DNA from: Micromonospora peucetia
Lineage (GTDB): Bacteria > Actinomycetota > Actinomycetes > Mycobacteriales > Micromonosporaceae
Assembly (NCBI RefSeq): GCF_900091625.1
Contig: NZ_FMIC01000002.1
Location: forward strand, 4,588,001 to 4,652,000
Direction: 5' to 3'
DNA length: 64,000 bases
This document shows, in pieces, positions 4,767 through 27,479 of this stretch (position 1 is its first letter; every line of letters begins with the position of its first letter). Under the pieces are notes generated by a model. The model did no database searches, had not been told where the DNA came from, and saw only the letters and a list, made by a program, of their open reading frames with translations. A program made the position numbers and the translations under genes.

Positions 4767-7700
4767 CCGCCAGCCACACCCCGAGCGCGCCCCTACGACA
4801 GGAACTGCTGGATCGGCGCCTGCGTGGTGCCGGTCGGTCCCGCCGCGCCGACACCGTCACCCCGGCGCCCCGGACCGGTCCGCTACCGCTCTCCTTCGGG
4901 CAGCACCGGCTCTGGGTGCTCGACCAGTTGCAGCCCGGCGGCACCGGGTACCTGATGTCCGTCGGCCTACGGCTGCGCGGCCCGCTGCACTCCGACGCGC
5001 TGTGCCGGGCGTTGACCGAACTGGTTGCCCGGCACGAGATCCTGCGGACCCGGTACGTGGTGGTCGACGGCGAGCCGGCACAGGTCGTCGACCCGCCCAC
5101 TCCGGTCGAGGTGGCGGTGACCGACCTCGGCCACACCGCCCAGGAGACGGCCCGGCAGCGCCTCACCGAGCTGCTCGGCACGCCGGACCCGGTCGACCTG
5201 ACCACCGGTCCGGCGTTGCGGGCCCGGCTGGTCCGGCTCGTCGAGGACGAGCACGCCCTGGTGCTGACCATGCACCACATCTCCTCCGACGGCTGGTCGG
5301 AGGGGATCATCCTCCGCGAACTGGCCGCCCTGTACGGCGCATTCGTCGCCGACCGGCCCTCCCCGCTCGCCCCGCTGCCGATCCAGTACGCGGACTTCGC
5401 CCTCTGGCAGCGGACCCGGCTCGCCGGAGACCGGCTGGACCGGCAGGTCGACCACTGGCGGGACCGGCTGACCGGGCTGATGCCGTTGGAACTGCCGACC
5501 GACCGGCCCCGGCCGCCGGTCTGGCACCCGGACGGCGGGCTGGTCACCTTCACGGTGTCGGCCGCCGTCGCCGGTCGGCTCCGTGAACTGGGCCGGGCGT
5601 CGAACGCCACCCCGTTCATGGTGCTGCTGGCCGCGTTCCAGATCCTGCTGGCCCGCTACACCGGGCAGACCGACCTCGCGGTGGGCACCCCGGCCGCCGG
5701 CCGGGACCGGTTGGAGGTGCACGGCCTGGTCGGACTCTTCCTCAACACGTTGGTGCTGCGGACCGACCTGTCCGGCGAGCCGACCTTCGTCGAGGTGCTG
5801 GCCCGGGTCCGGGAGGCGGTGCTGGACGCGCAGTCCCACCAGGACGTGCCGTTCGAACGGATCGTGGACGCGTTGTCCCCGGAACGGGACCTGTCCCGCA
5901 ACCCGCTGTTCCAGACCATGTTCCTCTTCCAGGAGGGCGGGTCGACCGGCTTCGACGCGGGCGGCCTGGTGGGGGAGGAGCTGTCCGCCGGCCCGGCCAC
6001 CGCGAAGTTCGACCTGACGCTCGGGCTGGTCGAGGAGGCCGACGGCTCCCTCTCCGGCGGAGTGGACTTCCCGACGGCGTTGTTCGACACCGCGACCGTG
6101 CGGCGGTTGGCCGGGCACTACCAGCGGTTGTTGACCGCGGTCGTCACCGACCCGGACACCCCGGTCACCCGGCTGCCCATGCTCACCGACACCGAAACGG
6201 CCCAACTCACGGCCTGGAACGACACCGCCGTCGACCACCCCCACCACACCCTGACCGAGCTGCTGGACGCGCAGGCGGCCCGTACGCCCGACGCGGTCGC
6301 GCTGCGCTTCGGCGGCGAGGAGCTGTCGTACCGCCGATTGCACGCCGAGGCCGGCGTCCTGGCGCGGCGGCTGCGCCAAGCCGGAGTCGGACCGGAGTCC
6401 GTCGTGGCCGTCTGCCTGCCCCGCGGCCTGGACCTGGTGCGGGCGCTGGTGGCGATCCTCAAGGCCGGTGCCGCCTATCTGCCGCTGGACCCGGACCTCC
6501 CGGCGCGACGCCGCGCCTTCATGGTGCGCGACTCCGGCACCCACCTGGTGATCACCGAGGACTTCATGTCCGCCGAAGAGCACGCGTCTCCCACCGGCGA
6601 TCCACCACCGTCCGAACCGATCACGCCCGGGCACGCCGCCTATCTCATCTACACGTCCGGGTCGACCGGGCGGCCGAAGGGCGCCCTGGTCGAGCATCGC
6701 GCGATCGTCAACCGCCTGCTGTGGATGCAGGACGCCTACCGGCTCGACGCCTCGGACCGGGTGTTGCAGAAGACGCCGGTCGGGTTCGACGTGTCGGTGT
6801 GGGAGCTCTTCTGGCCGCTGGTCACCGGGGCGACGCTGGTCCTCGCCCGCCCCGGTGGGCACCGCGACCCGGCTTACCTGGCCGACCTGATCAGGACGGA
6901 GAGGATCACCACCATCCACTTCGTACCGTCGATGCTGCGGGCCTTCCTGGCCGAGCCCGTCGGAGCGCTGCCGTCCCTGCGGCGGCTGATCTGCAGTGGC
7001 GAGGCGCTCCCGCCCGAACTGGTGACCCGGATGCACGAGCGGATCGGATGCGAACTGCACAACCTGTACGGCCCGACGGAGACCGCGGTCGACGTCACCG
7101 CGGTGCGGTGCGACCCCGGTGAGCCGGTCACCATCGGCCGCCCGATCGCCAACACCACCGCCCACATCGTCGACGCCGACCTTCAGCCCGCCCCGGTCGG
7201 GGTACCCGGCGAGCTGCTGATCGGTGGCGTGCAGCTCGCCCGGGGCTACCTCGGCCGGGCCGCGCTGACCGCCGAACGGTTCGTCCCCGACCCGTTCGCC
7301 GCCGTGCCGGGGCGACGCCTGTACCGCACCGGTGACCTGGCCCGCTACCGTCCCTGCGGCAGCATCGAGTACCTCGGCCGGATCGATCACCAGGTGAAGA
7401 TCCGTGGACAGCGCGTCGAGTTCGGTGAGGTCGAGGCCGTGCTGCACGAGGCCCCCGGCGTCACCGCGGCGGCGGTGGCCGTCCATGACGAGCAGCTGGT
7501 CGGCTACCTCGTCGGGCCGGAGACCGTCGAGGGGGTGCGTGCGTACCTGCTCGACCGCCTGCCGGACGCGATGGTCCCGGCGCGCTGGACGATCCTGCCT
7601 ACCCTGCCGCTGACCGCCAGCGGCAAGGTGGACCGCCGCGCCCTGCCGGCACCTGACTTGGTACCGGGCGGGGTGACCGACGGCTACGTCGCCCCGCGCG

Positions 7701-10700
7701 ACGAGCTCGAGGAGCGGATAGCCGACGCGTTCGGCGTGGCGCTCGGCATCGACACGGTCGGTGTGACGGACAGCTTCTTCCTGCTCGGCGGCGACTCGAT
7801 GCGGGCGATCCGGATGGTGGGGCTGCTGCGCGCGGCCGGCCTCGCGGTGTCGGTCCAGGACCTGTTCACGCACCAGAGCGTGGCCGACCTGGCGGGCGTG
7901 GTCGTCCGGACCGGGCCGGACGGGGAGACGGAGCCGACCGTCGGCCGGTTCGCGCTGGTGAGCGACGCGGACCGCAGCCGGCTGCCGGACGGGCTGGTCG
8001 ATGCCTATCCGATCACCCAGAACCAGGCGGGCATGCTGTTCGAGATGCTGTCCGGTGGCGACCGGCCGGTCTACCGCAACGTCTCCTGCTACCGGATCAG
8101 CGACCGGCTGCCGTTCTCGCTGGACGCGCTGCGGGAAGCTGGCCGGCTGCTCACCGACCGGCAGGAGATCCTGCGTACGTCGTTCGACCTGTCCGGCTAT
8201 TCCGAGCTGATGCAACTCGTCCACGCGTCGGTCGACCTGTCGATCGGCTACGACGACCTGCGTGGGCTGCTGCCCGACAACCAGGAGGAGGTGGTACGCG
8301 CGCACCTGCGGGCCGAGCGTCTCCGGCCGTTCGACGTCACCACGGCGCCGCTGCTGCGCTATCACGTGCACCAGCTCAGCGACTCCGAATGGCGGCTGAC
8401 CCACTCGGAGAGCCACGCGATCCTCGACGGCTGGAGCCACACCTCCACGGTGGCGATGCTGATCTCGTCGTACCGGACGCTGCGCCGGGGCGAGCGGCCC
8501 GCCCTGCCGCCACCGCCGGCGGTGCGGTTCGCCGACTTCGTCGCCCGCGAGCGTGAGTCGCTCGTCTCGGTGACGGACCGTGGCTTCTGGGCGGCGACCA
8601 TCGCCGGGTCGGACCGGCTCGAGCTGCCGCCGGAGTGGGGCATCGAGTCGGATGCTCCGGCGACCGTCATCGAGGTGCCGTGGGCCGATCTGCGTCCCGC
8701 ACTGCGCCGGCTCTCCGCTGCCGCCGGCACCTCGCTGAAGAGCGTGCTGCACGCCGCACACCTCAAGGTGATGAGCATCGTCACCGGCCGGCAGCGGTTC
8801 TTCAGCGGCCTGCTGTGCAACGGCCGGCCCGAGCGGCTGCGCGGCGACGAGGTGTTCGGCATGTACCTCAACACCGTGCCGTTCGCCGCCGACACCTCCG
8901 CTCCTACCTGGCGCGCTCTGGTCCAGGCCGTCTTCGCCGGCGAAGCGCGCCTCTGGCCGCACCGCCGCTACCCGCTGCCGTCCATGCAACGGCAGTGGGG
9001 CAACGGCACGCCCCTGCTGCGGGTCGGCTTCTCGTACCTGGACTTCCACGTGCTCGACGGCCCCGCCGAATCGGTCGAGATGGTCGACGACTTCAGCCCG
9101 AGCAGCGTCGGGCTGGACGTCTGGACCTTCCCGGGAGTCCTGCGGCTGGGCGCCCGGCCCGCCGACATCGACCGGCAGTACCTCGAACTGCTGGCCCGGA
9201 CCTACCGGCACGTGCTGGAGGCGATGGCCGCCGATCCGGACGGCGACCCGGACGTCGGCCTGAGCGCCGCCGACCGGGCCTGGGCGGTCGAGGCGTACCA
9301 GCCCGTCGAGCGGTTTGCGGCGGCGCCCTTCGTCCACGACCTCGTCGCCCAGCGCGCGACCGCCGCGCCCGCCGCGGTGGCGGTGCGGCACGGCGACGGC
9401 ACGCTCACCTACGGGGAACTGGACGACCGGTCCGACCGTCTCGCCGCGCGCCTGGGAGAGCTGGGCGTCCGGGCCGACACGATCGTCGGCATCCACCTGC
9501 CCCGCGGGATCGACCTCATCGTCGCGATGCTGGCCGTCCTCAAGGCCGGCGGGGCATACCTGCCGCTCGATCCGGCCTATCCCGCCGAGCGGGTCGGCGA
9601 CATGATCCGCGACGCGGCGCCCGTGGTCGTGCTGACCGACGGCGACCGGGCCCCGAGGCTGCCGTGCACGACCGCGACGGTGCTGGTCGCCGACCTCGCG
9701 AACGGTCGACCCCGGGTGGCCTACCCGCCAGCGGTACGGCTCAGCGGGGACAACCTCGCCTACGTCATCTACACGTCGGGCTCCACCGGCCGGCCCAAGG
9801 GCGTCGCGGTCACCCACCGCAGCGTGCTCAACTTCTGCCACGCCCAGCGGCGGATCCTGGACGCGCACGCCGGGGACGAGGTACTGCAGTTCGCCTCGCC
9901 GAGCTTCGACGCGTCGGTCTGGGAGATCCTCCTGGCCCTCGCCAACGGCGCGGCGCTGGTGCTGCCCCCGCCGGACGCCGACCCCGGTGACCTTCGCCGC
10001 CACGCGGCCGAACTCACCCACATGACCCTGCCGCCGCCGCTGCTGGACCGCCTCGACCCGGCCGACTTCCCGCGGCTGCGGGTGCTGACCACCGGTGGCG
10101 AGGCGTGCACGGCCGACCAGGCGGCGCGGTGGGCCGACCGGGTTCGCGTCCTGCACGCCTACGGACCCACCGAGACCACCGTCGTCGCCACCATCGCGGA
10201 GCTGCGGGCCACGGACACGGCACCGCCGCCGATCGGGCTTCCGCTGGACAACGTACGTGCCTACGTCGTCGACGACGAACTGCGACTGCTGCCCCCCGGC
10301 GTACGCGGGGAACTGGTGCTCGGCGGGGCGGGCGTGGTGCGCGGCTACCTCAACCGGCCGGAACTCACCGCCGAACGGTTCGTGCCGGACCCGTACGCGT
10401 CCCGACCGGGTGAGCGCATGTACCGCACCGGCGACGTGGTCTCCCGTGACCCCGACGGCACCCTGCACTTCCACGGGCGACGCGATCACCAGGTCAAGGT
10501 CCGCGGGTTCCGGATCGAACTCGGCGAGATCGAGAACGCCCTCGCCGCCCACCCGGCGGTGGCCGCCGCGGTGGTCGCCGTACACCGGGCCGGCAGCCCG
10601 GACGCCTCGCTCGTCGCCTACACCCGCCCCGCGAACGGGACCGTGGCGTCCGCGTCCGCGCTGCGCGACCACCTGCGGGAGCGGTTGCCGCAGCACCTCG

Positions 10701-11887
10701 TCCCGCACCACTACCTCTGCGTGGACGACTTCCCGTACACGCGCAACGGCAAGGTCGACCGGACCGCCCTTCCGGCGCCGGACGGCTCGCGGCCGGTGAC
10801 CGACGTCGAGTACGTCGCGCCGCGCTCGGACATCGAAGAGCACATCGCCACCGCCTGGAGCGAGGCGCTCGGCATCGAGCGGATCGGTGTGCACGACGAC
10901 TTCTTCGCGCTCGGCGGTCACTCGCTGGCGATGATGCGGCTGACCGCGACGCTGCGCAGCCGGCACGGCTACCAGCTGACGTTCGGCTCGTTCGTCGAAC
11001 ACCGCACCGTCGCCGGGCTGGCCGCGACACTTGAGGACCCGGCGGCGGCGCCAGCCGGCGCGATGATGTGGCTGCGGCGCGGCGGCGACGGCCGGCCTCC
11101 GCTCTTCTGCGTGCACCCCGGCGGCGGCAGCGCCCACTGGTACCTGCGCCTGGCTCCGCACCTGCACCCGGACCAGCCGGTGGCGGCGTTCGAATGGCCG
11201 GGTCCGCATCCGGCGGGCACGCCCACCACGGCGCAGATGGCGGAGCGCTACGACGACGAACTCCGCCGGGCCCAGCCGCACGGACCGTACCGGCTGTTCA
11301 GCTGGTGCGGTGGCAGTGGCATCGCCAGCGAGATGGCCCACCGGCTGGTCGAGGACGGACACGAGGTGACGCTGATCCTGCTCGATCCGGGCCTGGACAT
11401 CCACACCCGCGCCGACGCCTGGAACGAGCTCGGCCTGATCCGCCGCCTCGAACTGCTGCTCCACGAGGTGGACACCGGTGGCGACGAGGCCGACACGCCG
11501 GAACGCCGCCGGGAGATCCTCGACCTGCTCGAACACCTCGTCGACGACGTCGACGAGGAGGCCGGCATCGCGCTGCCCGAGCACGGCGTGGGGGACTCCT
11601 GGCCACGGACCGTCCGGATCTGGCGCGAGGTCATGGAGGTGGACGTCGAGTACCGGCACCGGCCCTGGCCGGGACGGCTGGAACTGATCGTCAGCGACGA
11701 GCTCGCCGACGGCCAGCACGAGGTCACGTCCGGCCAGAGCTACCCGGACTACCTGGCGCGCTGGGAGGAGCTCTGCGCCGGCGGCGTACGGGTGCACCGG
11801 GTGCCCGGTGACCACTTCAGCGTCATCAAGCCGCCGCTCGTCACCGAGCTCGCCCGCGTCGTCACCGACGTGCTCGACGCGAACTGA
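4763..11887 (+). CDS. Terminating NRPS (C-A-T-C-A-T-TE) with a cysteine-nucleophile thioesterase
   Basis: GTG start overlapping the upstream stop; 2374 residues. Domains: C (about 40-460, HHISSDG), A (about 495-970), T (GGDS, Ser1012), C (about 1083-1490, HAILDG), A (about 1520-2005), T (GGHS, Ser2054) and a type I thioesterase (about 2100-2370). My manual code for the first A domain is D-V-W-H-I-S-L-V-D-K, very close to the serine signature; the second is D-A-W-T-T-G-A-V-V-K, which looks hydrophobic or aromatic. The thioesterase elbow reads FSWCGGSG, so Cys2182 (codon 11306-11308) sits where the catalytic Ser of the usual GWSxGG lies; the Asp (LLDPG) and His (GDHFS) of the triad are present. 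Cys thioesterases are known in the sulfazecin and obafluorin pathways. No epimerisation or methylation domain is visible. The two proteins together would add at least four residues. Confidence 0.97.
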   Translation: MTASHTPSAPLRQELLDRRLRGAGRSRRADTVTPAPRTGPLPLSFGQHRLWVLDQLQPGGTGYLMSVGLRLRGPLHSDALCRALTELVARHEILRTRYVVVDGEPAQVVDPPTPVEVAVTDLGHTAQETARQRLTELLGTPDPVDLTTGPALRARLVRLVEDEHALVLTMHHISSDGWSEGIILRELAALYGAFVADRPSPLAPLPIQYADFALWQRTRLAGDRLDRQVDHWRDRLTGLMPLELPTDRPRPPVWHPDGGLVTFTVSAAVAGRLRELGRASNATPFMVLLAAFQILLARYTGQTDLAVGTPAAGRDRLEVHGLVGLFLNTLVLRTDLSGEPTFVEVLARVREAVLDAQSHQDVPFERIVDALSPERDLSRNPLFQTMFLFQEGGSTGFDAGGLVGEELSAGPATAKFDLTLGLVEEADGSLSGGVDFPTALFDTATVRRLAGHYQRLLTAVVTDPDTPVTRLPMLTDTETAQLTAWNDTAVDHPHHTLTELLDAQAARTPDAVALRFGGEELSYRRLHAEAGVLARRLRQAGVGPESVVAVCLPRGLDLVRALVAILKAGAAYLPLDPDLPARRRAFMVRDSGTHLVITEDFMSAEEHASPTGDPPPSEPITPGHAAYLIYTSGSTGRPKGALVEHRAIVNRLLWMQDAYRLDASDRVLQKTPVGFDVSVWELFWPLVTGATLVLARPGGHRDPAYLADLIRTERITTIHFVPSMLRAFLAEPVGALPSLRRLICSGEALPPELVTRMHERIGCELHNLYGPTETAVDVTAVRCDPGEPVTIGRPIANTTAHIVDADLQPAPVGVPGELLIGGVQLARGYLGRAALTAERFVPDPFAAVPGRRLYRTGDLARYRPCGSIEYLGRIDHQVKIRGQRVEFGEVEAVLHEAPGVTAAAVAVHDEQLVGYLVGPETVEGVRAYLLDRLPDAMVPARWTILPTLPLTASGKVDRRALPAPDLVPGGVTDGYVAPRDELEERIADAFGVALGIDTVGVTDSFFLLGGDSMRAIRMVGLLRAAGLAVSVQDLFTHQSVADLAGVVVRTGPDGETEPTVGRFALVSDADRSRLPDGLVDAYPITQNQAGMLFEMLSGGDRPVYRNVSCYRISDRLPFSLDALREAGRLLTDRQEILRTSFDLSGYSELMQLVHASVDLSIGYDDLRGLLPDNQEEVVRAHLRAERLRPFDVTTAPLLRYHVHQLSDSEWRLTHSESHAILDGWSHTSTVAMLISSYRTLRRGERPALPPPPAVRFADFVARERESLVSVTDRGFWAATIAGSDRLELPPEWGIESDAPATVIEVPWADLRPALRRLSAAAGTSLKSVLHAAHLKVMSIVTGRQRFFSGLLCNGRPERLRGDEVFGMYLNTVPFAADTSAPTWRALVQAVFAGEARLWPHRRYPLPSMQRQWGNGTPLLRVGFSYLDFHVLDGPAESVEMVDDFSPSSVGLDVWTFPGVLRLGARPADIDRQYLELLARTYRHVLEAMAADPDGDPDVGLSAADRAWAVEAYQPVERFAAAPFVHDLVAQRATAAPAAVAVRHGDGTLTYGELDDRSDRLAARLGELGVRADTIVGIHLPRGIDLIVAMLAVLKAGGAYLPLDPAYPAERVGDMIRDAAPVVVLTDGDRAPRLPCTTATVLVADLANGRPRVAYPPAVRLSGDNLAYVIYTSGSTGRPKGVAVTHRSVLNFCHAQRRILDAHAGDEVLQFASPSFDASVWEILLALANGAALVLPPPDADPGDLRRHAAELTHMTLPPPLLDRLDPADFPRLRVLTTGGEACTADQAARWADRVRVLHAYGPTETTVVATIAELRATDTAPPPIGLPLDNVRAYVVDDELRLLPPGVRGELVLGGAGVVRGYLNRPELTAERFVPDPYASRPGERMYRTGDVVSRDPDGTLHFHGRRDHQVKVRGFRIELGEIENALAAHPAVAAAVVAVHRAGSPDASLVAYTRPANGTVASASALRDHLRERLPQHLVPHHYLCVDDFPYTRNGKVDRTALPAPDGSRPVTDVEYVAPRSDIEEHIATAWSEALGIERIGVHDDFFALGGHSLAMMRLTATLRSRHGYQLTFGSFVEHRTVAGLAATLEDPAAAPAGAMMWLRRGGDGRPPLFCVHPGGGSAHWYLRLAPHLHPDQPVAAFEWPGPHPAGTPTTAQMAERYDDELRRAQPHGPYRLFSWCGGSGIASEMAHRLVEDGHEVTLILLDPGLDIHTRADAWNELGLIRRLELLLHEVDTGGDEADTPERRREILDLLEHLVDDVDEEAGIALPEHGVGDSWPRTVRIWREVMEVDVEYRHRPWPGRLELIVSDELADGQHEVTSGQSYPDYLARWEELCAGGVRVHRVPGDHFSVIKPPLVTELARVVTDVLDAN

Positions 11888-11945: not shown

Positions 11946-12836
11946 ATGAGTACCCGCACGAGCCCGGAAACGCTCAAGGTAGCGATCGTGGGCACGGGCA
12001 ACATCGGGACGGACCTGCTGTTGAAGGTCGGGGCGTCCCCCCTGCTGGAGTGCGTCCTGTTCGCCGGGCGCCGCGCCGGATCCCCCGGGATCCAGCTGGC
12101 CGAGCGTCACGGGGTGCCCACCAGCGTGGCCGGGATCGACGCGGTCACCGCCCGCGCCGAGCACATCGACCTGGTCTTCGACGCGACCTCGGCCGACGAC
12201 GCGACCCGCCACTGGTCGGTCGTCGCGCCCACCGGGCTGCCGTTCGTCGACCTCACGCCGGCGCACCTCGGGAAGTTCTGCGTACCGGCGCTCAACCTGG
12301 CCGACTGCCTCGACGAGCAGTACCTCAGCATGGTCACCTGCGGGGGACAGGCGGCGGTCCCGATGGCCCACTGCATGGCGGAGGCCGCGGACGGGATCGA
12401 CTACCTGGAGATCGTCTCGGCCAGCGCCTCGGCCACCGTCGGCCCCGCGTCCCGGGCCAACCTGGACGAGTACGTGCACACCACCGAGCAGGCGACCATC
12501 GAGTTCTGCGGCGTGCGGCGCACCAAGACCGTGCTGGTGATCAACCCCGCCGACCCCGGCATCGTCATGCGCAACTCCATCGCGGTGACGGCCGCCGAAC
12601 GAATCGACCTGGACGCCCTACGCGCGTCCGTCGGCATGATGGAGAAGCTGATCAGGTCGTACGTCCCCGGCTATCGCGTCGTCGTCCCGCCGGTGGCCGC
12701 CGGAGACCGGGTCACGATCATCGTGGAGGTCGAGGGCCGGGGCGACTGGTTCCCGCGCTACGCCGGCAATCTCGACATCATCACGTGCGCCGCCCTCGCG
12801 GTCGGCGAGGCCCGGGCAGAACGGCGGCGGTCATGA
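11946..12836 (+). CDS. Acylating acetaldehyde dehydrogenase (MhpF/DmpF family)
   Basis: 296 residues, the normal family length. ATG preceded by AAAGGAGG. N-terminal NAD-binding motif VGTGNIGTDL (15-24) and the catalytic cysteine in MVTCGGQA (Cys132, the same number as in DmpF). Family reaction: acetyl-CoA + NADH to acetaldehyde + CoA, reversible. In meta-cleavage pathways this enzyme forms a channelling complex with 4-hydroxy-2-oxovalerate aldolase, and here the aldolase gene follows with a 4-base overlap. No ring-cleavage dioxygenase or upstream aromatic degradation gene is present, and the gene lies 58 bases after the terminating NRPS. A role in supplying acetaldehyde, or another aldehyde, for a peptide building block is therefore more likely than catabolism. 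That direction is inference. Confidence 0.93.
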   Translation: MSTRTSPETLKVAIVGTGNIGTDLLLKVGASPLLECVLFAGRRAGSPGIQLAERHGVPTSVAGIDAVTARAEHIDLVFDATSADDATRHWSVVAPTGLPFVDLTPAHLGKFCVPALNLADCLDEQYLSMVTCGGQAAVPMAHCMAEAADGIDYLEIVSASASATVGPASRANLDEYVHTTEQATIEFCGVRRTKTVLVINPADPGIVMRNSIAVTAAERIDLDALRASVGMMEKLIRSYVPGYRVVVPPVAAGDRVTIIVEVEGRGDWFPRYAGNLDIITCAALAVGEARAERRRS

Positions 12837-13864
12837 GCGGCGCACCGAAACTCAGCATCTGCGACACGACCCTGCGCGACGGCAACCACGCGGTCGCCCA
12901 CCAACTCGGCCGCGCGGACATCAGCGCCTACGCGCGGGCGGCCGAGGCAGCTGGTGTGGACGTTGTCGAGGTCGGCCACGGCAACGGACTCGGTGCCTCG
13001 TCCATCCAGGTCGGCATGGCCGCGCTCAGCGACGCCGAGATGCTGCGGACCGCCAAGGCCGAGCTGCGTACCGCCCGGCTCGGCGTGCTGTCCATTCCCG
13101 GGTTCGCCAGTGTCGAGCGCGACCTCAGGCCGGCGCTGGACTGCGGCGTGGACGAGGTCCGGGTCGGCGCGCACTGCACCGAGGCGGACGTCACCCGGCA
13201 GCAGGTCACGATGCTGCGGGCGATGGGCGTCGCCGTCAAGGGGATGCTGTTGATGAGCCACATGGCCTCTGCGGCGAAGCTGGTGGAACAGGCCCGGCTC
13301 ATGCAGAGCTACGGTGCCGAGGCGGTCATTCTGATGGACTCCGCCGGCGCGTACACGCCGGAGAAGGTCCGCGAGAAGGTCGGCGAACTCGTCGAGAACC
13401 TCGACATCGCGGTCGGTTTCCACGCGCACAACAACCTCGGTATGTCGGTCGTCAACAGCATGGCGGCGATCGAGGCCGGGGCCACCATCGTCGACGTCAC
13501 GGCGCGTGGCTTCGGAGCGGGCGCGGGTAACGCGCCGATCGAGCTCGTCGCGGCCAACCTGCATGTCGGGCAGATCGAGACCGGCGTCCAGCTCTTCGGC
13601 GCGTTGGACGCGGCCGACGTGGCACAGGAGCGGTTCGTCAAGCACGTACCCACCAACGACAGCGTCACCATCGCCAGCGGGATCGCCGGGGTGTTCTCCG
13701 GGTTCGCCGCGCCGGTGCGGCGGGCGAGCGCCCGCTTCGGCGTCGACCCCCGCAAGATCCTGCTGGAGCTGGGCAACCGGCGGGTGGTGGCCGGCCAGGA
13801 AGACACCATCATCGAGGTCGCCATGTCGCTGGCCGCCGAGCAGCAGGCATCGAGCCGGGTGTGA
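12833..13864 (+). CDS. 4-hydroxy-2-oxovalerate aldolase (MhpE/DmpG family)
   Basis: 343 residues, standard for the family. ATG overlaps the dehydrogenase stop (ATGA). HMGL-like TIM barrel with the opening motif CDTTLRDGNHA (catalytic Arg15, metal ligand Asp16, His19) and the metal-binding HAHNN motif (His197, His199). Family reaction: reversible aldol reaction between pyruvate and acetaldehyde giving 4-hydroxy-2-oxopentanoate, with a divalent metal. The C-terminal region corresponds to the DmpG communication domain that docks the dehydrogenase, so the pair probably forms the usual complex. In this operon the enzyme would run toward C-C bond formation, producing a 2-oxo-4-hydroxy acid for the methyltransferase or hydratase genes that follow. 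Substrate and direction are inferred from context. Confidence 0.93.
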   Translation: MSGAPKLSICDTTLRDGNHAVAHQLGRADISAYARAAEAAGVDVVEVGHGNGLGASSIQVGMAALSDAEMLRTAKAELRTARLGVLSIPGFASVERDLRPALDCGVDEVRVGAHCTEADVTRQQVTMLRAMGVAVKGMLLMSHMASAAKLVEQARLMQSYGAEAVILMDSAGAYTPEKVREKVGELVENLDIAVGFHAHNNLGMSVVNSMAAIEAGATIVDVTARGFGAGAGNAPIELVAANLHVGQIETGVQLFGALDAADVAQERFVKHVPTNDSVTIASGIAGVFSGFAAPVRRASARFGVDPRKILLELGNRRVVAGQEDTIIEVAMSLAAEQQASSRV

Positions 13865-13905
13865 GCGGGTCGTCAGGGTTCGCATCAAATGATGTAGGAG
13901 GAGCA

Positions 13906-14892
13906 ATGCAACGCCATTCCTCGCTCGACGACGCGGCCGACCTGGCCGCGGTCGCCGCGCTGCTGCAGATCGGCGCGGAGATCGGAGTGGACCGACTGCT
14001 GGACTCGGGCGACACGTTCAGCTCCGCCGAGCTGGCCAGGATCGCCGATCTCCCGCAGGCCGGCGTGGACGACTACCTCGCCGCGCTGGTCGCCGCCGGA
14101 CTGGTGGTCGGCACGGAGGCCCCGGACCGGTTCCAGGCAGCCTCGGACTACCCGGACCGGCGGTACGCGGCCGGATATCTGTCCTGGGCGATGAGCGCGA
14201 ACGGCCCGTTCCTCGTCAACGCCCGGGAGTTCCTGGCCGACCGCGACGCGGCCGCCCGGGTCCACCGGCGCAACGGGCGCCGGGTGGCGGTCAGCTCCCG
14301 GTGGATCGGCGAGCGGGCGTTCTATCCGCCGATCGTCGACCGGGTCGTCTCGGCCGGTGCCTCGCATGTGGCCGACCTCGGCGCCGGCGCTGGCGGGTTG
14401 CTCGTCAGGCTCCTGGGGCAGGACCCGGCGCGTACCGGCGTGGCGCTCGACAGCAGCGGCGCCGCGTGTGCCGCGGCGCGGGAGGCCGCCGCCGCCGCGG
14501 GGGTGGACGACCGGCTCCAGGTCGTCGAGCGTACTGTCCAGTCGCTTGCGGACGACCCCGGGCCGGTCGAGGGTGCGAACGCCGTGCTGGCGTGTTTCGT
14601 CATGCACGACATCGTGGCGGACGCGTCGGTGGCCAAGGCCGTCCTGGGCGCCTGCCGCGACGCGCTTGCTCCCGGCGGCTTCATGGCGGTCGCCGACGCC
14701 GTCTCCTACGCGCCCGATCCCGTGGAGCGAAGGTTCAGCGCGCTGTTCACCTACCTGCACGCCAGCTTCATGAGCGTGACTCTCCCGTCCGAGCGGCATT
14801 GGCTGGACACGTTCCAGGCCGCGGGCTTCTCCAAGACCGAGTGCGTGCCGCTCGGCGTGCCCGGCGGCCGGCTCTTCGTGGCGGTCAGGTAG
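13906..14892 (+). CDS. SAM-dependent methyltransferase, MppJ/SgvM-like alpha-keto-acid C-methyltransferase
   Basis: 328 residues. ATG 13906 chosen for its strong TAGGAGGA site; a GTG at 13861 overlaps the aldolase stop but has none. Layout is that of small-molecule (O-methyltransferase-fold) enzymes: an N-terminal helical dimerisation/winged-helix part (1-95), SAM motif DLGAGAGG (157-164) and a C-terminal catalytic part. The motif ACFVMHD (His234) and a second histidine in TYLHASF (His285) line up, with nearly the same spacing, with the two histidines I recall as iron ligands in MppJ (phenylpyruvate beta-methyltransferase). SgvM and MrsA are relatives acting on other 2-oxo acids. With aldolase and hydratase genes on either side, C-3 methylation of a 2-oxo acid before transamination is the best reading. 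An O-methyltransferase cannot be excluded. Confidence 0.75.
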   Translation: MQRHSSLDDAADLAAVAALLQIGAEIGVDRLLDSGDTFSSAELARIADLPQAGVDDYLAALVAAGLVVGTEAPDRFQAASDYPDRRYAAGYLSWAMSANGPFLVNAREFLADRDAAARVHRRNGRRVAVSSRWIGERAFYPPIVDRVVSAGASHVADLGAGAGGLLVRLLGQDPARTGVALDSSGAACAAAREAAAAAGVDDRLQVVERTVQSLADDPGPVEGANAVLACFVMHDIVADASVAKAVLGACRDALAPGGFMAVADAVSYAPDPVERRFSALFTYLHASFMSVTLPSERHWLDTFQAAGFSKTECVPLGVPGGRLFVAVR

Positions 14893-15677
14893 TGGCCACC
14901 AGGCTGTCCCTGCACCGCGAGCTCGCGGGCGAGCTCCGGACGGCGGCGCGGACCCTTCGTGCCGTGCCGCCGGTCTCGGTCCGGCATCCGGAGCTCGACC
15001 TGGCAGACGCCTACGCCATCCAGAGCGAGCTACGCGAGATGGATCTGGCGGCCGGCGCGGTCCTGGCCGGGCTCAAGATCGGTGCGACCAGCGAGGCGAT
15101 CCAGTCGATGTTCGGCATCGACCATCCCGACTTCGGTTACCTGACCGACCAGATGGTGCTCCACGACGGTGCCGACCTCGACCTGAGCCGGTTCATCGCG
15201 CCGAAGGTCGAGGGCGAGATCGCGTTCCGGTTCGCGGCGGACCTCGCCGGCCCGGCCGTGACCGCGCATGACGTGCTGGCCGCCACCGCGGAGATCCTGC
15301 CGGCGCTGGAGGTGCTCGACAGCCGGATCCAGGACTGGCGGATCGGCCTGGTGGACACCGTCGCCGACAACGCTTCGTCGGCGTTGGCCGTGGTCGGCGC
15401 CGGCATGCCGCCCGACACCACGGACCTGGCCGGCGCGCGGATGGAGTTGCGTAGCCGCCACGTCGTGCAGGAGGGGCGAGGCTCGGCCGTGATGGGGCAT
15501 CCGGCCGAGTCCGTGGCCTGTCTGGTCCGCATCCTGTCCGGGTTCGGCACCGGGATCAGGGCCGGGCAGCTCGTGCTCTCCGGTTCCTGGGCGGCGGCCG
15601 TGGACCTTGTGCCGGGTGACACCGTGCGGGCCTCCTTCGGCGCCCTGGGCGCGGTGTCGCTGACCACCCGCGGCTGA
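14892..15677 (+). CDS. 2-oxopent-4-enoate hydratase-like enzyme (MhpD/DmpE family)
   Basis: 261 residues, typical of the fumarylacetoacetase-fold hydratase/decarboxylase family. The GTG start shares one base with the methyltransferase TAG. The family signature is present: Lys62 in GLKIGATS, metal ligands Glu107 and Glu109 in KVEGEIAF, and Glu140 in ALEVLDSR, each one residue from the E. coli MhpD positions. The reversible reaction adds water to 2-oxopent-4-enoate to give 4-hydroxy-2-oxopentanoate; relatives decarboxylate 4-oxalocrotonate. Downstream of the aldolase in an anabolic setting it could dehydrate the aldol product to an unsaturated 2-oxo acid. It is the last gene before a strong hairpin and probably ends the NRPS-headed transcription unit. 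Confidence 0.88.
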   Translation: MATRLSLHRELAGELRTAARTLRAVPPVSVRHPELDLADAYAIQSELREMDLAAGAVLAGLKIGATSEAIQSMFGIDHPDFGYLTDQMVLHDGADLDLSRFIAPKVEGEIAFRFAADLAGPAVTAHDVLAATAEILPALEVLDSRIQDWRIGLVDTVADNASSALAVVGAGMPPDTTDLAGARMELRSRHVVQEGRGSAVMGHPAESVACLVRILSGFGTGIRAGQLVLSGSWAAAVDLVPGDTVRASFGALGAVSLTTRG

Positions 15678-15790: not shown

Positions 15791-17086
15791 ATGACCATGC
15801 TGGTGGACGAGACGGTACCCCCGCACAAGGCGGCCTACGACTTCTCCCTCTTCGAGGCGATGGAGTCGGAGGTGCGTTACTACTGCCGCAAGTTTCCGGT
15901 GGTGTTCGACCGGGCCCAGGGCGCCGAGCTCTACGCCGAGGACGGTCGGATGTTCACCGACTTCTTCTGCGGCGCAGGCACCCTGAACTACGGCCACAAC
16001 CATCCCTACCTCAAGCGTCGTATCACGGAGTACCTCGCCAGGGACGGCGTGATGCACGGCCTGGACATGTACACCGTGGCGAAGCGGACCTTCCTGAGCC
16101 GGCTCCGGGAGCAGGTGCTGGCCCCGCGAGGGCTGGACCACAAGGTGCAGTTCTGCGGGCCGACCGGCACCGACGCGGTGGAGGCGGCGCTGAAGGTGGC
16201 CCGTCGGGCCACGGAACGGCGTGGCGTCGTCTCCTTCACCGGGGCCTACCACGGCATGTCCCGCGGGTCGCTGGCGGTCAGCGGTGGCCGCCGGGCCCGC
16301 GCCGCCGGGCAGGTGGGCACGGCGGATGTGACGTTCGTGCCGTACGAGGACGGTCCGGCGGGACCGTTCGACTCGATCGGATACCTGGAGCGGATGCTGT
16401 CCGACCCGTCGTCGGGGATGGACATCCCGGCCGCGGTGATCGTCGAACCGTTGCAGATGGAGGGCGGGGTGTACCCGGCCTCGGCCGACTGGCTGCGCCG
16501 GCTGCGCGGGGTGACCACCCGGTACGGCGTTCTGCTCATCTTCGACGAGATCCAGTCCGGCTGCGGACGGACCGGCACGTTCTTCTGTTTCGAACATGCC
16601 GGCGTGGTGCCGGACATCATCACCGTCTCCAAGGCGATCGGCGGGTACGGGCTGCCGTTGTCGATGGTGCTGTTCCGACCGGACCTTGACGTCTGGTCGC
16701 CGGGGGAACACACGGGCACCTTCCGGGGCAACCAGCTCGCCTTCGTCGCCGGTGCCGCCGCCTGCGAGCTCTGGGGCCAGGACGGATTCCGGACCACCGC
16801 CGCCGTCGGCGCCCGGCGTCTGGAGCGCTTCGGCGCGGAACTGCGCGACAGCGATCCGGCGCTCGCCGTGCGGGGTCTGGGCATGGTTCTCGGCATCGAT
16901 CTGCGGGCGGCTGGGGGCGCCGAGCGGGCCGATCGGATTCAGCGGCACTGCTTCGAGACCGGGCTGATCGTCGAACTCTGCGGACGCGACGACGAAGTGA
17001 TCAAGGTGATGCCGCCGCTCACCATCGACCTCGCCCGGCTGGAGCGGGGCCTCACCGTACTGCACCGGGCCATCCAGGCCAGCTGA
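15791..17086 (+). CDS. EctB-like diaminobutyrate--2-oxoglutarate aminotransferase (PLP class III)
   Basis: 431 residues; ATG after GAGGAGACCC. It closely follows EctB along its length: ESEVRYYCRKFP (26-37), GTLNYGHNHP (63-72), MHGLDMYTVAK (88-98), KVQFCGPTGTDAVEAALK (118-135), FDEIQSG (251-257, PLP-ring Asp252) and the PLP lysine in TVSKAIGGYGLPLS (Lys281). EctB converts L-aspartate 4-semialdehyde and glutamate to L-2,4-diaminobutyrate. No ectA or ectC lies nearby, so ectoine synthesis is unlikely; the enzyme probably supplies diaminobutyrate, or another omega-amino acid, for the NRPS. The carbamoyltransferase gene 44 bases downstream could modify the side-chain amine. Action on the mhp-derived keto acid is a less likely alternative. 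Confidence 0.9.
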   Translation: MTMLVDETVPPHKAAYDFSLFEAMESEVRYYCRKFPVVFDRAQGAELYAEDGRMFTDFFCGAGTLNYGHNHPYLKRRITEYLARDGVMHGLDMYTVAKRTFLSRLREQVLAPRGLDHKVQFCGPTGTDAVEAALKVARRATERRGVVSFTGAYHGMSRGSLAVSGGRRARAAGQVGTADVTFVPYEDGPAGPFDSIGYLERMLSDPSSGMDIPAAVIVEPLQMEGGVYPASADWLRRLRGVTTRYGVLLIFDEIQSGCGRTGTFFCFEHAGVVPDIITVSKAIGGYGLPLSMVLFRPDLDVWSPGEHTGTFRGNQLAFVAGAAACELWGQDGFRTTAAVGARRLERFGAELRDSDPALAVRGLGMVLGIDLRAAGGAERADRIQRHCFETGLIVELCGRDDEVIKVMPPLTIDLARLERGLTVLHRAIQAS

Positions 17087-17130: not shown

Positions 17131-18057
17131 ATGGACCGTCGTCCCCGCCGTCACCTGCTGTCGATCCAGGACCTCAGCGACACCGACCTGCGGCATCTGG
17201 TGGCTCGCAGCGCCGATCATGCCGCCGGTCGGGTCCGCCCCGCCGACCAGTTGCGCGGTCTGGTCACCGCGGTCTACTTCCGCCGCACCTCGACCCGGAC
17301 CCGCACCGCCTTCTCCAGCGGCGCTCTGCGGCTCGGCTCGCATCTGATCAGCTACGGCCCGGGGGATCTGCAACTGAACACCGGTGAGACGGTCGAGGAC
17401 ACCACCCGGGTGCTGTCCGGGATGGTCGACCTGTTCGTCGCCCGGACCGCCGACCCGGTCGCCGAGTTGCGGGCCTTCGCCGAGCAGGACCGGATGGGGG
17501 TGATCAACGCGATGAGCGCCGAGGAGCACCCCACGCAGGCGCTGGCCGACCTGAGCACCATGACCCAGCGGTTCGGCCGGGTCGACGGGCTGCGGGTGCT
17601 CTACGTGGGGGAGGGCAACAACACCGCCGCCGCGCTCGCGCTCGCCCTCAGCCGGTTCACCGAAACCCGGCTGTACCTGCGCACGCCGCCCGGGTACGGG
17701 TTGGACCTGGACCTCCTCACCGCCGCTCAGGTGGCCGCCGAGCGGACCGGCTCGACGGTCGCCGAGGCGCACCACATGACGGACCTGCCGGAGGTCGACG
17801 TCGTCTACGCCACCCGCTGGCAGACCACCGGCACCGCCAAGCCGGATCCGGACTGGCGGCGGGTCTTCGCGCCGTTCCAGGTCGACGGGGCGGTCCTGGC
17901 GGCGAGCCCGCAGGCGGTGTTCATGCACGACCTGCCGGCGCACCGGGGTGAGGAGGTCACCGCCGGGGTGCTGGACGGTCCCCGCAGCATCGCCTTCGAG
18001 CAGGCCCAGCACAAGATGTTCAGCGCCCAGGCCGCGCTGGAGTGGTGCGCCGGGTGA
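17131..18057 (+). CDS. Atypical ornithine/aspartate carbamoyltransferase family enzyme
   Basis: 308 residues; ATG after CTGGAGGGTCCCG. The carbamoyl-phosphate half is intact: FRRTSTRTRTAF (STRTR at 54-58) and HPTQAL (133-138). The amino-acid half is hybrid. Where ornithine enzymes have an SMG loop, this protein has VVYATRWQTTG (225-235), resembling the TRxQ loop of aspartate carbamoyltransferase. The HCLP motif, whose Cys contacts ornithine, is HDLP (266-269), although the following PAHRGEEVT is ornithine-type. It should transfer a carbamoyl group from carbamoyl phosphate to an amine other than ornithine's. Next to an EctB-like aminotransferase, the obvious acceptor is diaminobutyrate, giving 4-ureido-2-aminobutyrate. 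VioL of viomycin synthesis is a family precedent. A primary-metabolism argF or pyrB is unlikely given the altered residues. Confidence 0.85.
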   Translation: MDRRPRRHLLSIQDLSDTDLRHLVARSADHAAGRVRPADQLRGLVTAVYFRRTSTRTRTAFSSGALRLGSHLISYGPGDLQLNTGETVEDTTRVLSGMVDLFVARTADPVAELRAFAEQDRMGVINAMSAEEHPTQALADLSTMTQRFGRVDGLRVLYVGEGNNTAAALALALSRFTETRLYLRTPPGYGLDLDLLTAAQVAAERTGSTVAEAHHMTDLPEVDVVYATRWQTTGTAKPDPDWRRVFAPFQVDGAVLAASPQAVFMHDLPAHRGEEVTAGVLDGPRSIAFEQAQHKMFSAQAALEWCAG

Positions 18058-18143: not shown

Positions 18144-21100
18144 GTGGACAGATCGGGGACGCGGGATACGGCAGCGGTGAGTGGTGCGGGCAGCGCTTGG
18201 TGGGCGCCCGGCCGCACCCTCGCCGAACGGGTACGGGCAGCCGACCACGGCGGGCCGGTCGCCGCTGACCCCGTGTCGGAGCACGCCATGCGGCGGCTGC
18301 GGGACTGGCGCTCGGCGTACGAGCTGGGGGCGACGGGTCAGTTCGCGAACCGCCTGGCGGCCCTGGGGATCACCGAGCGGCAGTTCCTGGCCCTCCTCGA
18401 CCGACCGCCGGCGGCGCTGGCGAACGGGTCGGGCGCGCCCGGGTGGGCCGAGTTCACCGAACGGGCGCTCGGCATCGCCCCCGACGGAGCCCGCCACCTG
18501 CCCCCGGACACGCCGTGGTCCGACGCGTTCGCCGGCGTGCTGGCGCCGTTCGTCACGGCCGCCTGCGCCGACCTGCGGCAGCGGGTGCGTACTCCCGGGA
18601 TGTCCGTGGTGGCCGACCTCGACGCGGTGTACGCCGGGTTCGCCGACGCGCTCCGCGTCAGGCTGGTCGCGATGGCGTCGCGTACCTTCGTCCTGGAACT
18701 CAACGTCGCCCGGGCCGCCGGCCGGCTGGCGGGCCCCACGCCCGAGCACCGGTTCGCCGCCTTCGTGGCAGACCTCGCCCAGCGCGAGCGGCTGACCCGG
18801 GTGATGACGGACTACCCCGTGCTGGCGCGGCTTCTGGCGACCGCCTGCCGGCACGCCGTCGAGGCGACAGCCGAGCTGCTCGACCGGTTCGTCGCGGATC
18901 GGGCGGAGATTCTCGGCCGGTTGCTCGACGGCCGCGATCCGGGACCGCTGGCCGGATTCGACGTGGCGGGGGACTCACACGGGCACGGGCGGGCGGTGGC
19001 GATCCTGCGCTTCGCCTCCGGTGCCCGGGTGATCTACCGGCCGCGCTCGGTTGCTGTCCACGTGCACTTCAACGAGGTCCTGGACTGGCTGAACGGGTTG
19101 CTGCCCGAGCTGGAGCTGCGCACGTTGACCGTGCTCGCCCGCGATGGCTACGGGTGGATCGAGGCTGTCGACCGTGTCGCCTGCGCCGACGTGGGCCAGG
19201 TGGGCGCGTTCTACCGCCGGCAGGGGGTGCTGCTCGCGCTGCTGTATCTGCTGGGCATGACGGACATCCACCACGAGAACCTGATCGCCTGCGCCGACCA
19301 GCCCGTCCTCGTCGATGTCGAGACGCTGATGCACCCCGATCTCCCCGTACCGACCGCCGCGCCCGATCCCGCCGCCCGGGCGCTGCGGACGTCGGTGTAC
19401 CGCACCGCCCTGCTGCCCCAGCCGCTCATCGGCGAACGCGGTCTGTTGGACATCTCCGGCCTGGGTGGCGACCCCGGCGCGCAACAGCTCCGAGAGACCG
19501 TCGCGTGGGCTGCGGCCGGCACCGACACGATGCACCTGGTGCGTCGTTCCGCGCCCGTGCGGGCCGCCGAGAACCGCCCGACGCTGGACGGCGTCCCGGC
19601 CGATGCCGCCGAGTACACGGCCGAGCTGCTCGCCGGATTCCGGGCCGCGTACCGCGCCATCGCCCGGCGAGCCGGCGATCTGATCGGCCCGGACGGCCTG
19701 CTCCGGCGGTTCGCCGCCGACGAGTTGCGGGTCATCGTCCGGTCGACGCGGACCTACACCGTGCTGCTGAGCGAGTCCACTCATCCCGACGTGCTGCGCG
19801 ACGCGCTCGACCGTGATCAGATCTTCGACCTGCTCTGGGCGGCCTCGGTGGACGACCCGGTGCGTAACCGTCTGGTGTCCCGCGAGATCGAGCAGCTCTG
19901 GGCCGGCGACGTCCCCCTGTTCACCTGCTGTCCGGACGACCGCGACCTGACCGGTGGTGACGGCGTCGGGTTCGTCGACGTGCTCGACGAACCGGTACTG
20001 GCAACCGCGCAGCGCAAGATCGCCAGCATGGGCGTGATCGACCAACGCGACCAGGAGTGGATCGTCCAGGCCGCGCTCGCCGGCCGGCTCGGTGGGGCAC
20101 GCCACGAGTGCGCCGAGCCGGTATCGGTCCGGTGGGAGGCGACGGCACCGGACCCGGGCAGGCTGCTCACAGTGGCCTGCGGTATCGCCGACAAGATCAT
20201 CGCGGACGCCTACGACGACGGCGTGTTCGCCAACTGGCTCGGGCTCGAGCCGGTGGACGGCGGGCACAGCACGATCATGCCGCTGGGCGCGGGGCTGGGA
20301 AACGGATACCCGGGCACGGCCCTCTTCCTGGCCGAACTGGCCCGGCTCACGGACGTCGACCGCTACGCCGAGGCCGCTGGCCGGGCGGTGCGCCAGCTGC
20401 CCGTGTTGCTCACCGCGCTGGACGCTCGGCCGCACCTGGCGAGCACGATCGGCAGCGGTGGCTTCACCGGCCTCGGGGGGATCGCCTACACGGCGGCCCG
20501 GCTCGCCGACCTGCTTCAGGACGACGCGCTCGGCGACTCGGTCGAGAGGGCGGTTCGCCTCGCGGCGATCGCCGCCACCACGGAGACCAACCTGGGCGTG
20601 CTGGACGGGCTTGCCGGTTGCCTTGCCGCGATGCTCGCCGTCAGCGACCTGACCGGTCTGCCGCTGGCGGCCGCGACGGCCCGAGACTGTGCCCAGCGGC
20701 TGCTCGCGGCCGGCTCCTCGCTGCCCGCGCAGCCCGGCTTCGCCACCGGTACGGCCGGGATCGGCTGGGCCCTGCTGCGATTCGCGCAGGTGGGAGGCGA
20801 CGAGCGGCACGCCGAGGCCGGCAGCGCGATGTTGGCCCGTGCCGCCACCGGCCCGATCCCGGGCCCGTCGACGCACTCCTGGTGCCACGGCGTCCCGGGA
20901 ATCGCGGTCGCCATCGCCGACCAGCGCCGGTTGCTGGCGGACCCCGCACTGGCGGCCTTCGTGGACCGCGCGGCGACCGCCGTGTCGCAAACCGGACTGG
21001 TCAGCGACCACAGCCTCTGCCACGGGGAGATGGGCAGGCAGGAGATGTTGTCGGTCGCCGCCGCGCGCGGTCGCCGGGCTGCGGTGAGCGTTCGGTTCGA

Positions 21101-21302
21101 CCAGGCCGGACAACTGGTCGCGGCGCTGGACCAGGCCGGCCCGAGGTGCGGTGCCGCCGGCGACGTGAGTGTCGCCGGCCTGCTGGACGGCCTGGCCGGG
21201 ATCGGCCACGGACTGCTCCGTATCGGCTTCGCCGATCATGTGCCCTCGGCACTGCTGCTGCATGCCGAGCCGACGACATCCGGACGCGGTGTCGAGAACT
21301 AG
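18144..21302 (+). CDS. lanM: Class II lanthipeptide synthetase (LanM)
   Basis: About 1052 residues, typical of LanM. The N-terminal DUF4135 dehydratase shows GDSHGHGRAVAILRF (from about 276) followed by a YRPRS motif; such enzymes phosphorylate and eliminate Ser/Thr hydroxyls in a precursor peptide. The C-terminal LanC-like cyclase has zinc ligands WCHG (Cys914) and SLCHG (Cys959, His960), 45 residues apart much as in NisC. The start is uncertain: GTG 18111, 18144 and 18177 are in frame and none has a clear ribosome site. GTG 18144 is chosen because it lies beyond the palindrome and before the conserved WWAPGRTLAER region; a leaderless transcript is possible. The gene is followed after 12 bases by a small cysteine-free peptide gene. 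No LanT transporter/protease is nearby. Confidence 0.93.
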   Translation: MDRSGTRDTAAVSGAGSAWWAPGRTLAERVRAADHGGPVAADPVSEHAMRRLRDWRSAYELGATGQFANRLAALGITERQFLALLDRPPAALANGSGAPGWAEFTERALGIAPDGARHLPPDTPWSDAFAGVLAPFVTAACADLRQRVRTPGMSVVADLDAVYAGFADALRVRLVAMASRTFVLELNVARAAGRLAGPTPEHRFAAFVADLAQRERLTRVMTDYPVLARLLATACRHAVEATAELLDRFVADRAEILGRLLDGRDPGPLAGFDVAGDSHGHGRAVAILRFASGARVIYRPRSVAVHVHFNEVLDWLNGLLPELELRTLTVLARDGYGWIEAVDRVACADVGQVGAFYRRQGVLLALLYLLGMTDIHHENLIACADQPVLVDVETLMHPDLPVPTAAPDPAARALRTSVYRTALLPQPLIGERGLLDISGLGGDPGAQQLRETVAWAAAGTDTMHLVRRSAPVRAAENRPTLDGVPADAAEYTAELLAGFRAAYRAIARRAGDLIGPDGLLRRFAADELRVIVRSTRTYTVLLSESTHPDVLRDALDRDQIFDLLWAASVDDPVRNRLVSREIEQLWAGDVPLFTCCPDDRDLTGGDGVGFVDVLDEPVLATAQRKIASMGVIDQRDQEWIVQAALAGRLGGARHECAEPVSVRWEATAPDPGRLLTVACGIADKIIADAYDDGVFANWLGLEPVDGGHSTIMPLGAGLGNGYPGTALFLAELARLTDVDRYAEAAGRAVRQLPVLLTALDARPHLASTIGSGGFTGLGGIAYTAARLADLLQDDALGDSVERAVRLAAIAATTETNLGVLDGLAGCLAAMLAVSDLTGLPLAAATARDCAQRLLAAGSSLPAQPGFATGTAGIGWALLRFAQVGGDERHAEAGSAMLARAATGPIPGPSTHSWCHGVPGIAVAIADQRRLLADPALAAFVDRAATAVSQTGLVSDHSLCHGEMGRQEMLSVAAARGRRAAVSVRFDQAGQLVAALDQAGPRCGAAGDVSVAGLLDGLAGIGHGLLRIGFADHVPSALLLHAEPTTSGRGVEN

Positions 21303-24627: not shown

Positions 24628-27479
<2,852 letters not shown>

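Follow-up and report, generated by a model that had tools for sequence, protein, structure and literature searches.

A probable cyclomarin-type amino-acid cassette in an otherwise different non-ribosomal peptide synthetase cluster of Micromonospora peucetia

The stretch of DNA analysed here, called the window, comprises 64,000 nucleotides of Micromonospora peucetia (C2:4588001-4652000 of a 7.37 Mb genome in two contigs) and carries at 11946-15677 four genes that form a tightly packed operon on the + strand, directly behind genes for a non-ribosomal peptide synthetase (NRPS). Judged by sequence, these genes are likely to be a cassette of the type that provides cyclomarin with 2-amino-3,5-dimethylhex-4-enoic acid (ADH), whatever aldehyde it uses, and the case for the residue being ADH itself, made from isobutyryl-CoA, appears about evenly balanced. 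The four genes, in order, are:

11946-12836, + strand: DmpF-type acylating aldehyde dehydrogenase (TIGR03215, 326.8 bits, cut-off 282.25).
12833-13864, + strand: DmpG-type pyruvate aldolase (TIGR03217, 356.4 bits, cut-off 286).
13906-14892, + strand: predicted SgvM/MppJ-type C3-methyltransferase of 2-oxo acids (PDB 8ftr, E 2.4e-87; MppJ, E 4.9e-12).
14892-15677, + strand: 2-oxopent-4-enoate-hydratase-type enzyme (best match TIGR03220, 229.9 bits, E 3.2e-68).

These matches bear out the coordinates and enzyme identities given in an initial annotation of the stretch, with the hydratase assigned at family level only as its score lies below the cut-off of 408.8 bits. The first two genes overlap by 4 bases and the last two by 1 base, and good ribosome-binding sites precede the dehydrogenase and methyltransferase genes. 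Protein-family scans, in the window as in the related loci below, covered selected open reading frames.

The methyltransferase matches SgvM (PDB 8ftr, which we take to be SgvM from its histidine positions) far better than any aromatic O-methyltransferase among the matches listed. The initial annotation had pointed to His234 and His285 as a metal-ligand pair, and this pair is real: the two residues align with H244 and H296 of SgvM, are invariant in a 26-row alignment (A1) and are kept in all 28 of the four-gene loci described below. The pair and the full-length homology place the enzyme in the SgvM/MppJ class. The iron of the initial annotation would be that of MppJ, whose metal we take to be iron. 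In SgvM, H244 and H296 are reported to coordinate zinc, and the pocket was widened by changing F329 to Val and T331 to Ala, together with M144V (PMC10502145). The window enzyme has Val and Gly at the positions of F329 and T331. Gly is found at the latter in 28 of 28 four-gene loci, with a residue other than Phe at the former in 26; ten loci with the methyltransferase but without the other genes have Phe at F329 in nine cases and Thr at T331 in eight.

Searching genomes for the four-gene set beside NRPS genes, as the initial annotation had suggested, showed the arrangement to be recurrent. A single scan, in which named genomes were searched with nothing but the methyltransferase alignment, gave 39 loci; partner genes were counted within the fetched flanks. 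All four genes are present in 28 of them; one (L023) has matches to methyltransferase, hydratase and LnmK only, its match lying 6.6 kb from a contig end, and ten lack both a dehydrogenase and a hydratase partner, aldolase matches at 28-29% in L027 and L033 being left out of the count. The order of the window is found in 13 of the 28, the order methyltransferase, hydratase, DmpF, DmpG in 12 and other orders in three. A condensation or adenylation match of at least 200 residues is present in 20 of the 28 fetched stretches (in L015 at 26% identity only), and six of the eight loci without such a match (L017, L019, L020, L022, L026, L037, L041, and L047) are on stretches of 9.6-15.9 kb. The recurring linkage of the four genes is not due to chance.

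In six loci (L009-L012, L014, and L016) a DMATS prenyltransferase match, taken as the mark of cyclomarin-type clusters, lies directly before the set and the gene order is that of the window. The literature describes, for the ADH residue of cyclomarin, a "four-gene cassette" that homologates isobutyraldehyde with pyruvate (PMC8068612), and the initial annotation therefore went too far in regarding such a route as undescribed. The window set likewise consists of adjacent dehydrogenase, aldolase, C-methyltransferase, and hydratase genes in an NRPS cluster, and its enzymes are nearer to those of the cyclomarin-type loci than to catabolic ones or to SgvM. Identity with the copies of the six loci is 75-79% for the dehydrogenase, 86-88% for the aldolase and 72-77% for the hydratase, as against 42 and 50% between the aldolase and two other copies in the same genome (the catabolic one in L005 and that in L006, respectively). 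The methyltransferase is 69% identical to a protein (P0023) of Salinispora arenicola CNS-205, which we take to be the strain of the published cyclomarin cluster; in the tree this protein falls within an eight-row clade (100/100) that holds the six DMATS loci, and the six-row clade of the window is the sister of that clade on a joint branch supported at 100/98. Schultz 2008 reportedly assigned the four cyclomarin genes to these enzyme families, in agreement with the six DMATS loci. Among named relatives, those nearest to the methyltransferase come from Micromonospora (L018 is from Micromonospora sp. C31). A survey of the genus gave a match of E <= 1e-40 in 12 of 160 genomes, and in four of these genomes, that of the window among them, identity reached at least 89%. 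A search for the PF11991 prenyltransferase gave no match in the window genome, with the named controls of that search also silent; as a positive control, the same search matched the six cyclomarin-type genomes, and two others weakly, of 11 searched. Among the papers listed in literature searches, whose coverage left most subscription journals outside, no other cluster described with this cassette was found.

An altogether different explanation would be that the four genes are a remnant or a complete meta-cleavage catabolic operon, merely located beside NRPS genes and accompanied by an O-methyltransferase. The names of the enzyme families fit this, and the same genome does contain, at L005, a copy that is probably catabolic: it lies in a kynurenine-type operon with Trp 2,3-dioxygenase, kynureninase, an FAD protein, an aldehyde dehydrogenase, and an aldolase with Tyr at the position discussed below. 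The ring-cleavage dioxygenase that such an operon calls for was however not found: neither the scans of selected open reading frames nor searches with TIGR03211 and PF02900, which covered the window genome together with the 27 genomes that contain the 28 loci (L015 and L024 lie in a single genome), revealed a match near the four genes of the window or inside any of the 28 loci. The initial annotation, which had noted no dioxygenase, holds on this point for the window genes and also for their relatives. The profiles as such do match in these genomes, TIGR03211 in 25 of 28 (over cut-off in six) and PF02900 in 26 of 28, at 144 places in total. If contig numbers are ignored, nine of the 144 places share coordinates with loci, five in all; the three coinciding with L010 are on other contigs (L010 itself is on C33), those of L018, L022, and L046 hold other genes, and that of L041 is an opposite-strand open reading frame without Pfam match. 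Weak matches on the same contig lie outside the loci, at G002:C33:72197 (32.8 bits, ~26 kb beyond L010) and at G182:C1:9610301 (44 bits, ~29 kb beyond L035), and the single matches in the window genome, C2:97024 (28.5 bits, with an in-frame stop) and C2:5427182, are far from the cluster. Neither of the oxygenase-type genes nearby, a TauD gene and an FAD aromatic-hydroxylase-type gene at 24628-26076, encodes a ring-cleavage enzyme. With the aldolase carrying Phe where the L005 copy and 1NVM have Tyr, the methyltransferase carrying the histidine pair of 2-oxo-acid C-methyltransferases and matching SgvM better than any aromatic O-methyltransferase listed, and NRPS linkage recurring as it does, a catabolic operon was rejected as extremely improbable. 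A third dehydrogenase-aldolase pair in the same genome (L006:8277-14187; G000:C2:5295946-5301856) has Phe in its aldolase, adjoins a Cupin_8 gene, a class I/II aminotransferase, an HpcH/HpaI-type aldolase, and an ornithine-cyclodeaminase-family gene, and looks biosynthetic.

If the genes are a cyclomarin-type cassette, the dehydrogenase would reduce an acyl-CoA, most likely isobutyryl-CoA, to the aldehyde and hand this to the aldolase for condensation with pyruvate to a 4-hydroxy-2-oxo acid. Acting as a dehydratase, the hydratase-type enzyme would remove water to leave a 2-hydroxy-2,4-dienoate (dienol), and the methyltransferase would methylate the dienolate at C3 on its metal centre, giving a 3-methyl-2-oxo-4-enoic acid. 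After amination by an unlinked transaminase, the amino acid would be taken up by the last NRPS module, just upstream, before the thioesterase. We infer the synthetic direction and the order of the third and fourth steps; if the dienolate is methylated at C3, the double bond stays at C4-C5, its position in ADH, and this would explain why the hydratase is present in 28 of 28 loci. Two proposals of the initial annotation accord with what the sequences suggest, namely that meta-cleavage enzymes run in reverse would build a 2-oxo acid for an NRPS, which appears well supported, and that this acid would undergo MppJ/SgvM-type C-methylation, which also appears supported. It is chemically possible that dehydration does not take place and that amination of the 3-methyl-4-hydroxy-2-oxo acid yields a gamma-hydroxy, beta-methyl residue of the 4-hydroxyisoleucine type, and the hydratase score under its equivalog cut-off leaves some room for this. 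Such a product is nevertheless improbable, as no locus with the dehydrogenase, aldolase, and methyltransferase genes lacks the hydratase gene and as the Lys, Glu-x-Glu, and Glu motifs, presumably active-site residues, are kept in the hydratase alignment.

The catalytic residues of the first two enzymes are also conserved. The Cys of the CGGQ motif, which we take to be the catalytic residue of the dehydrogenase, is kept in 34 of 34 aligned rows, and the aldolase keeps Arg17, Asp18, His21, His200, and His202 of 1NVM, with Phe in place of Tyr291 (Tyr290 of BphI). The Y290F change in BphI is reported to lead to loss of C4 stereocontrol (PMC3962088); as the C4 hydroxyl would be removed by dehydration, such control would be unnecessary in the cassette. 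Phe at position 291 was considered as a signature peculiar to the cassette and rejected, since it marks a wider subgroup: among the best 120 of 7109 matches it is present in 83 of 83 at 65% identity or above and in 37 of 37 at 55-61%, and the L006 copy has it too. Within the same 120 matches the motif Leu/Met-Ser-(Ile/Met/Leu) at positions 88-90 is found in all 83 of the closer group, the window's included, and in none of the 37.

The aldehyde is less firmly placed than the cassette type. The initial annotation had named a C5 product derived from acetaldehyde, which is unsupported given that nothing fixes the aldehyde and that the described cyclomarin set uses a C4 aldehyde. The same route could still start from acetaldehyde or propionaldehyde and lead to 2-amino-3-methylpent-4-enoic acid (beta-methyl-allylglycine) or 2-amino-3-methylhex-4-enoic acid. 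This alternative differs from the ADH route only in the aldehyde, its probability overlaps with that of the cassette assignment, and we regard it as possible but rather unlikely. It draws on the dehydrogenase and aldolase families being named for acetaldehyde and 4-hydroxy-2-oxovalerate, on a last adenylation code unlike that of the cyclomarin-type loci, on a sister branch that is apparently fed a propionyl-type unit by LnmK (see below), and on the aldolase pocket, which has Leu and Ile at BphI positions Leu87 and Leu89 (88 and 90 in 1NVM), near to the acetaldehyde enzyme. The aldolase is on the other hand only 50-53% identical to those of order-II loci, compared with the far higher values for cyclomarin-type loci, and its seven motif blocks are identical to those of L012 and differ at one position in L009 and L010. 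The methyltransferase loop is moreover open (Val, Gly) compared with Phe and Thr in SgvM, an enzyme of C6 acids, which is a weak argument as the LnmK branch mostly has Met and Gly.

Several observations speak against the ADH route, which is still preferred. In BphI, L87A is reported to lower the specificity for acetaldehyde and L89A to raise that for longer aldehydes (PMC3962088). The window aldolase, with Leu and Ile at these positions, has no small residue at 89, the change that lets engineered BphI accept longer aldehydes, and nothing in its pocket points to a longer aldehyde. A widened methyltransferase loop also occurs outside the branch of the window, and the one genome scan gave no S. 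arenicola CNS-205 locus, the cyclomarin-type loci being recognised here by their DMATS neighbours. A transaminase dedicated to the 2-oxo acid was not found among the genes of the cluster. The adenylation (A) domain of the last module before the thioesterase has the hydrophobic code DAWTTGAVVK, where the cyclomarin-type loci have DAMVLGVVAK (five of six readable), and ADH is residue 7 there; the residue or the loading module may thus differ, and A codes were rejected as proof of the same residue. We know of no chemistry or product reported for this strain.

The NRPS and neighbouring genes of the window, with condensation (C), thiolation (T), and thioesterase (TE) domains, are:

1-4766, + strand: 3' part of an NRPS gene, C-A-T-C-A-T, starting ~1755 bases upstream of the window; first A code DAWQCATIDK.
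4916-11887, + strand: NRPS, C-A-T-C-A-T-TE; A codes DVWHISLVDK and DAWTTGAVVK.
9326-10795, + strand: last A domain, DAWTTGAVVK.
15791-17086, + strand: EctB-family diaminobutyrate transaminase (NF006733, 575.5 bits, cut-off 438; TIGR02407, 546.8 bits, just under 552.2).
17131-18057, + strand: divergent carbamoyltransferase of the ornithine carbamoyltransferase family (NF001986, 236.4 bits, under the 306 cut-off).
18273-21302, directly behind the cluster: LanM, a type 2 lanthipeptide synthetase, followed by a LuxR-type regulator.

Upstream of the window (L004, L007, and the edge of L008) the - strand carries an A-T-C NRPS, SbnB, SbnA, PanD, an MFS exporter, a C-A-T-C-A-T and an A-T NRPS, and MbtH, with SbnB and SbnA being the 2,3-diaminopropionate genes of the cluster, and the + strand carries the TauD-type oxygenase (L004:15101-16090) and the NRPS gene whose 3' part lies in the window. 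The oxygenase has 72-74% relatives in three LnmK-branch loci, L028-L030 (Micromonospora/Verrucosispora). The coupling to two NRPS genes noted initially thus stands as a linkage, but the NRPS part is larger, with eight A domains that lie partly upstream. Their codes are DVCRLSLVEK, DVWHVSLVDK, DPLQLGIVWK (DPLQVCIVWK in a second reading), DVPHVSLVEK, DAWQCATIDK, one that could not be read safely, DVWHISLVDK, and DAWTTGAVVK; readings differed for two domains, the second of the gene ending at 4766 and the second of L004:6290-12748. Most codes we take to be Ser-like, Gly-like, or Gln-like (DAWQCATIDK Gln-like, DVWHISLVDK Ser-like). As the only clearly hydrophobic code in the cluster belongs to the last A domain, this domain is the candidate for loading the cassette amino acid.

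The transaminase and carbamoyltransferase probably serve a second pathway, supplying diaminobutyrate and carbamoylating it to 2-amino-4-ureidobutyrate, by analogy with padanamide, for which carbamoylation of diaminobutyrate to 2-amino-4-ureidobutyrate by a carbamoyltransferase is reported (PMC4581275). In the window an EctB-family enzyme likewise stands beside a divergent member of the ornithine carbamoyltransferase family, and the Gln-like module could load the ureido acid. The initial annotation had passed the 2-oxo acid to this adjacent aminotransferase. That amination step was rejected in favour of diaminobutyrate supply, on the grounds of the EctB family, the padanamide precedent and the occurrence of a close relative in just one of the 28 four-gene loci: L018 keeps the transaminase (96%), the carbamoyltransferase (91%), and LanM (90%), and the match in L017 is at 26%. 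Elsewhere in the window, at 50809-54360, lies a NACHT-domain protein with an NNH1 N-terminus and leucine-rich repeats, possibly a defence protein.

A second branch of the cassette is marked by a match to the LnmK-type acyltransferase/decarboxylase in 11 of the 28 loci (L017, L025, L028-L032, L035, L041, L045, and L046). Family scans of this branch covered L045 and L028, the other loci being compared with L045 proteins; LnmK was recognised by TIGR04098 (280.4 bits, cut-off 100) and PF18238, and the acyl carrier protein (ACP) by PF00550 in L045. All 11 loci have a match to the L045 ACP and eight to a HisC-like aminotransferase (13 of 28 overall). LnmK turns methylmalonyl-CoA into propionyl-ACP, and the branch therefore probably feeds propionaldehyde. 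The grouping of LnmK, ACP, and HisC suits synthesis and not breakdown, and independently supports a synthetic direction for the family as a whole. In L019 (631-9571) the cassette lies beside HPPD-fold, FMN-dehydrogenase, Trp-halogenase, and prephenate-dehydrogenase genes, of which L021 shares the FMN-dehydrogenase gene; this setting suggests a hydroxyphenylglycine-containing halogenated peptide with the same type of residue.

The chemistry of the cassette is thus already known in kind from cyclomarin, and what looks new is the surrounding peptide and the setting, an otherwise different Micromonospora-type NRPS cluster with diaminopropionate genes, ureido-diaminobutyrate genes, and Ser-like modules. 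A cyclomarin-type cassette in a different NRPS cluster implies that the cassette moves between peptides, and at least four kinds of neighbourhood were seen in the survey (with the DMATS gene, of the window type, with hydroxyphenylglycine-type genes, and with LnmK). It is tempting to speculate, although we hold this only tentatively, that the cassette belongs to a larger family of modules for pyruvate homologation whose acyl donors can be exchanged, the cyclomarin and window branches using free acyl-CoA and another branch an ACP-bound propionyl unit made by an LnmK-type enzyme, with each branch making a different beta-methyl, gamma,delta-unsaturated NRPS amino acid, that of the window being undescribed and placed in a new ureido-diaminobutyrate and diaminopropionate peptide. 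The cassette may serve as a genome-mining marker for peptides with branched unsaturated residues, and as a source of natural aldolase and methyltransferase variants, some of which resemble engineered changes (Phe for Tyr290 of BphI, Val/Gly in the SgvM loop).

Among known systems, SgvM from the viridogrisein pathway and MppJ from that of mannopeptimycin resemble the window methyltransferase in full-length homology, the metal-binding histidine pair and the predicted 2-oxo-acid substrate class. SgvM has a Phe/Thr pocket loop and alpha-ketoleucine as substrate (PMC10502145), whereas the window enzyme has a Val/Gly loop and the dienol made by the cassette as its proposed substrate. The DmpEFG and HsaEFG lower pathways share the enzyme families and the dehydrogenase-aldolase pair, but near the window set no ring-cleavage dioxygenase was found, its aldolase carries Phe at the position of Tyr291, its operon includes a C-methyltransferase, and its proposed direction is opposite to theirs. 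With padanamide the window shares a carbamoyltransferase class, proposed there to act on diaminobutyrate and here accompanied by an EctB-type transaminase, a putative function drawn from family and neighbourhood. Closest is the cyclomarin cassette, also a four-gene set in an NRPS cluster, with the same order in the six cyclomarin-type loci and a methyltransferase of the sister clade; the window genome differs in having no prenyltransferase match, a different NRPS with eight A domains and another last A code, and diaminopropionate and ureido-diaminobutyrate genes around the cassette.

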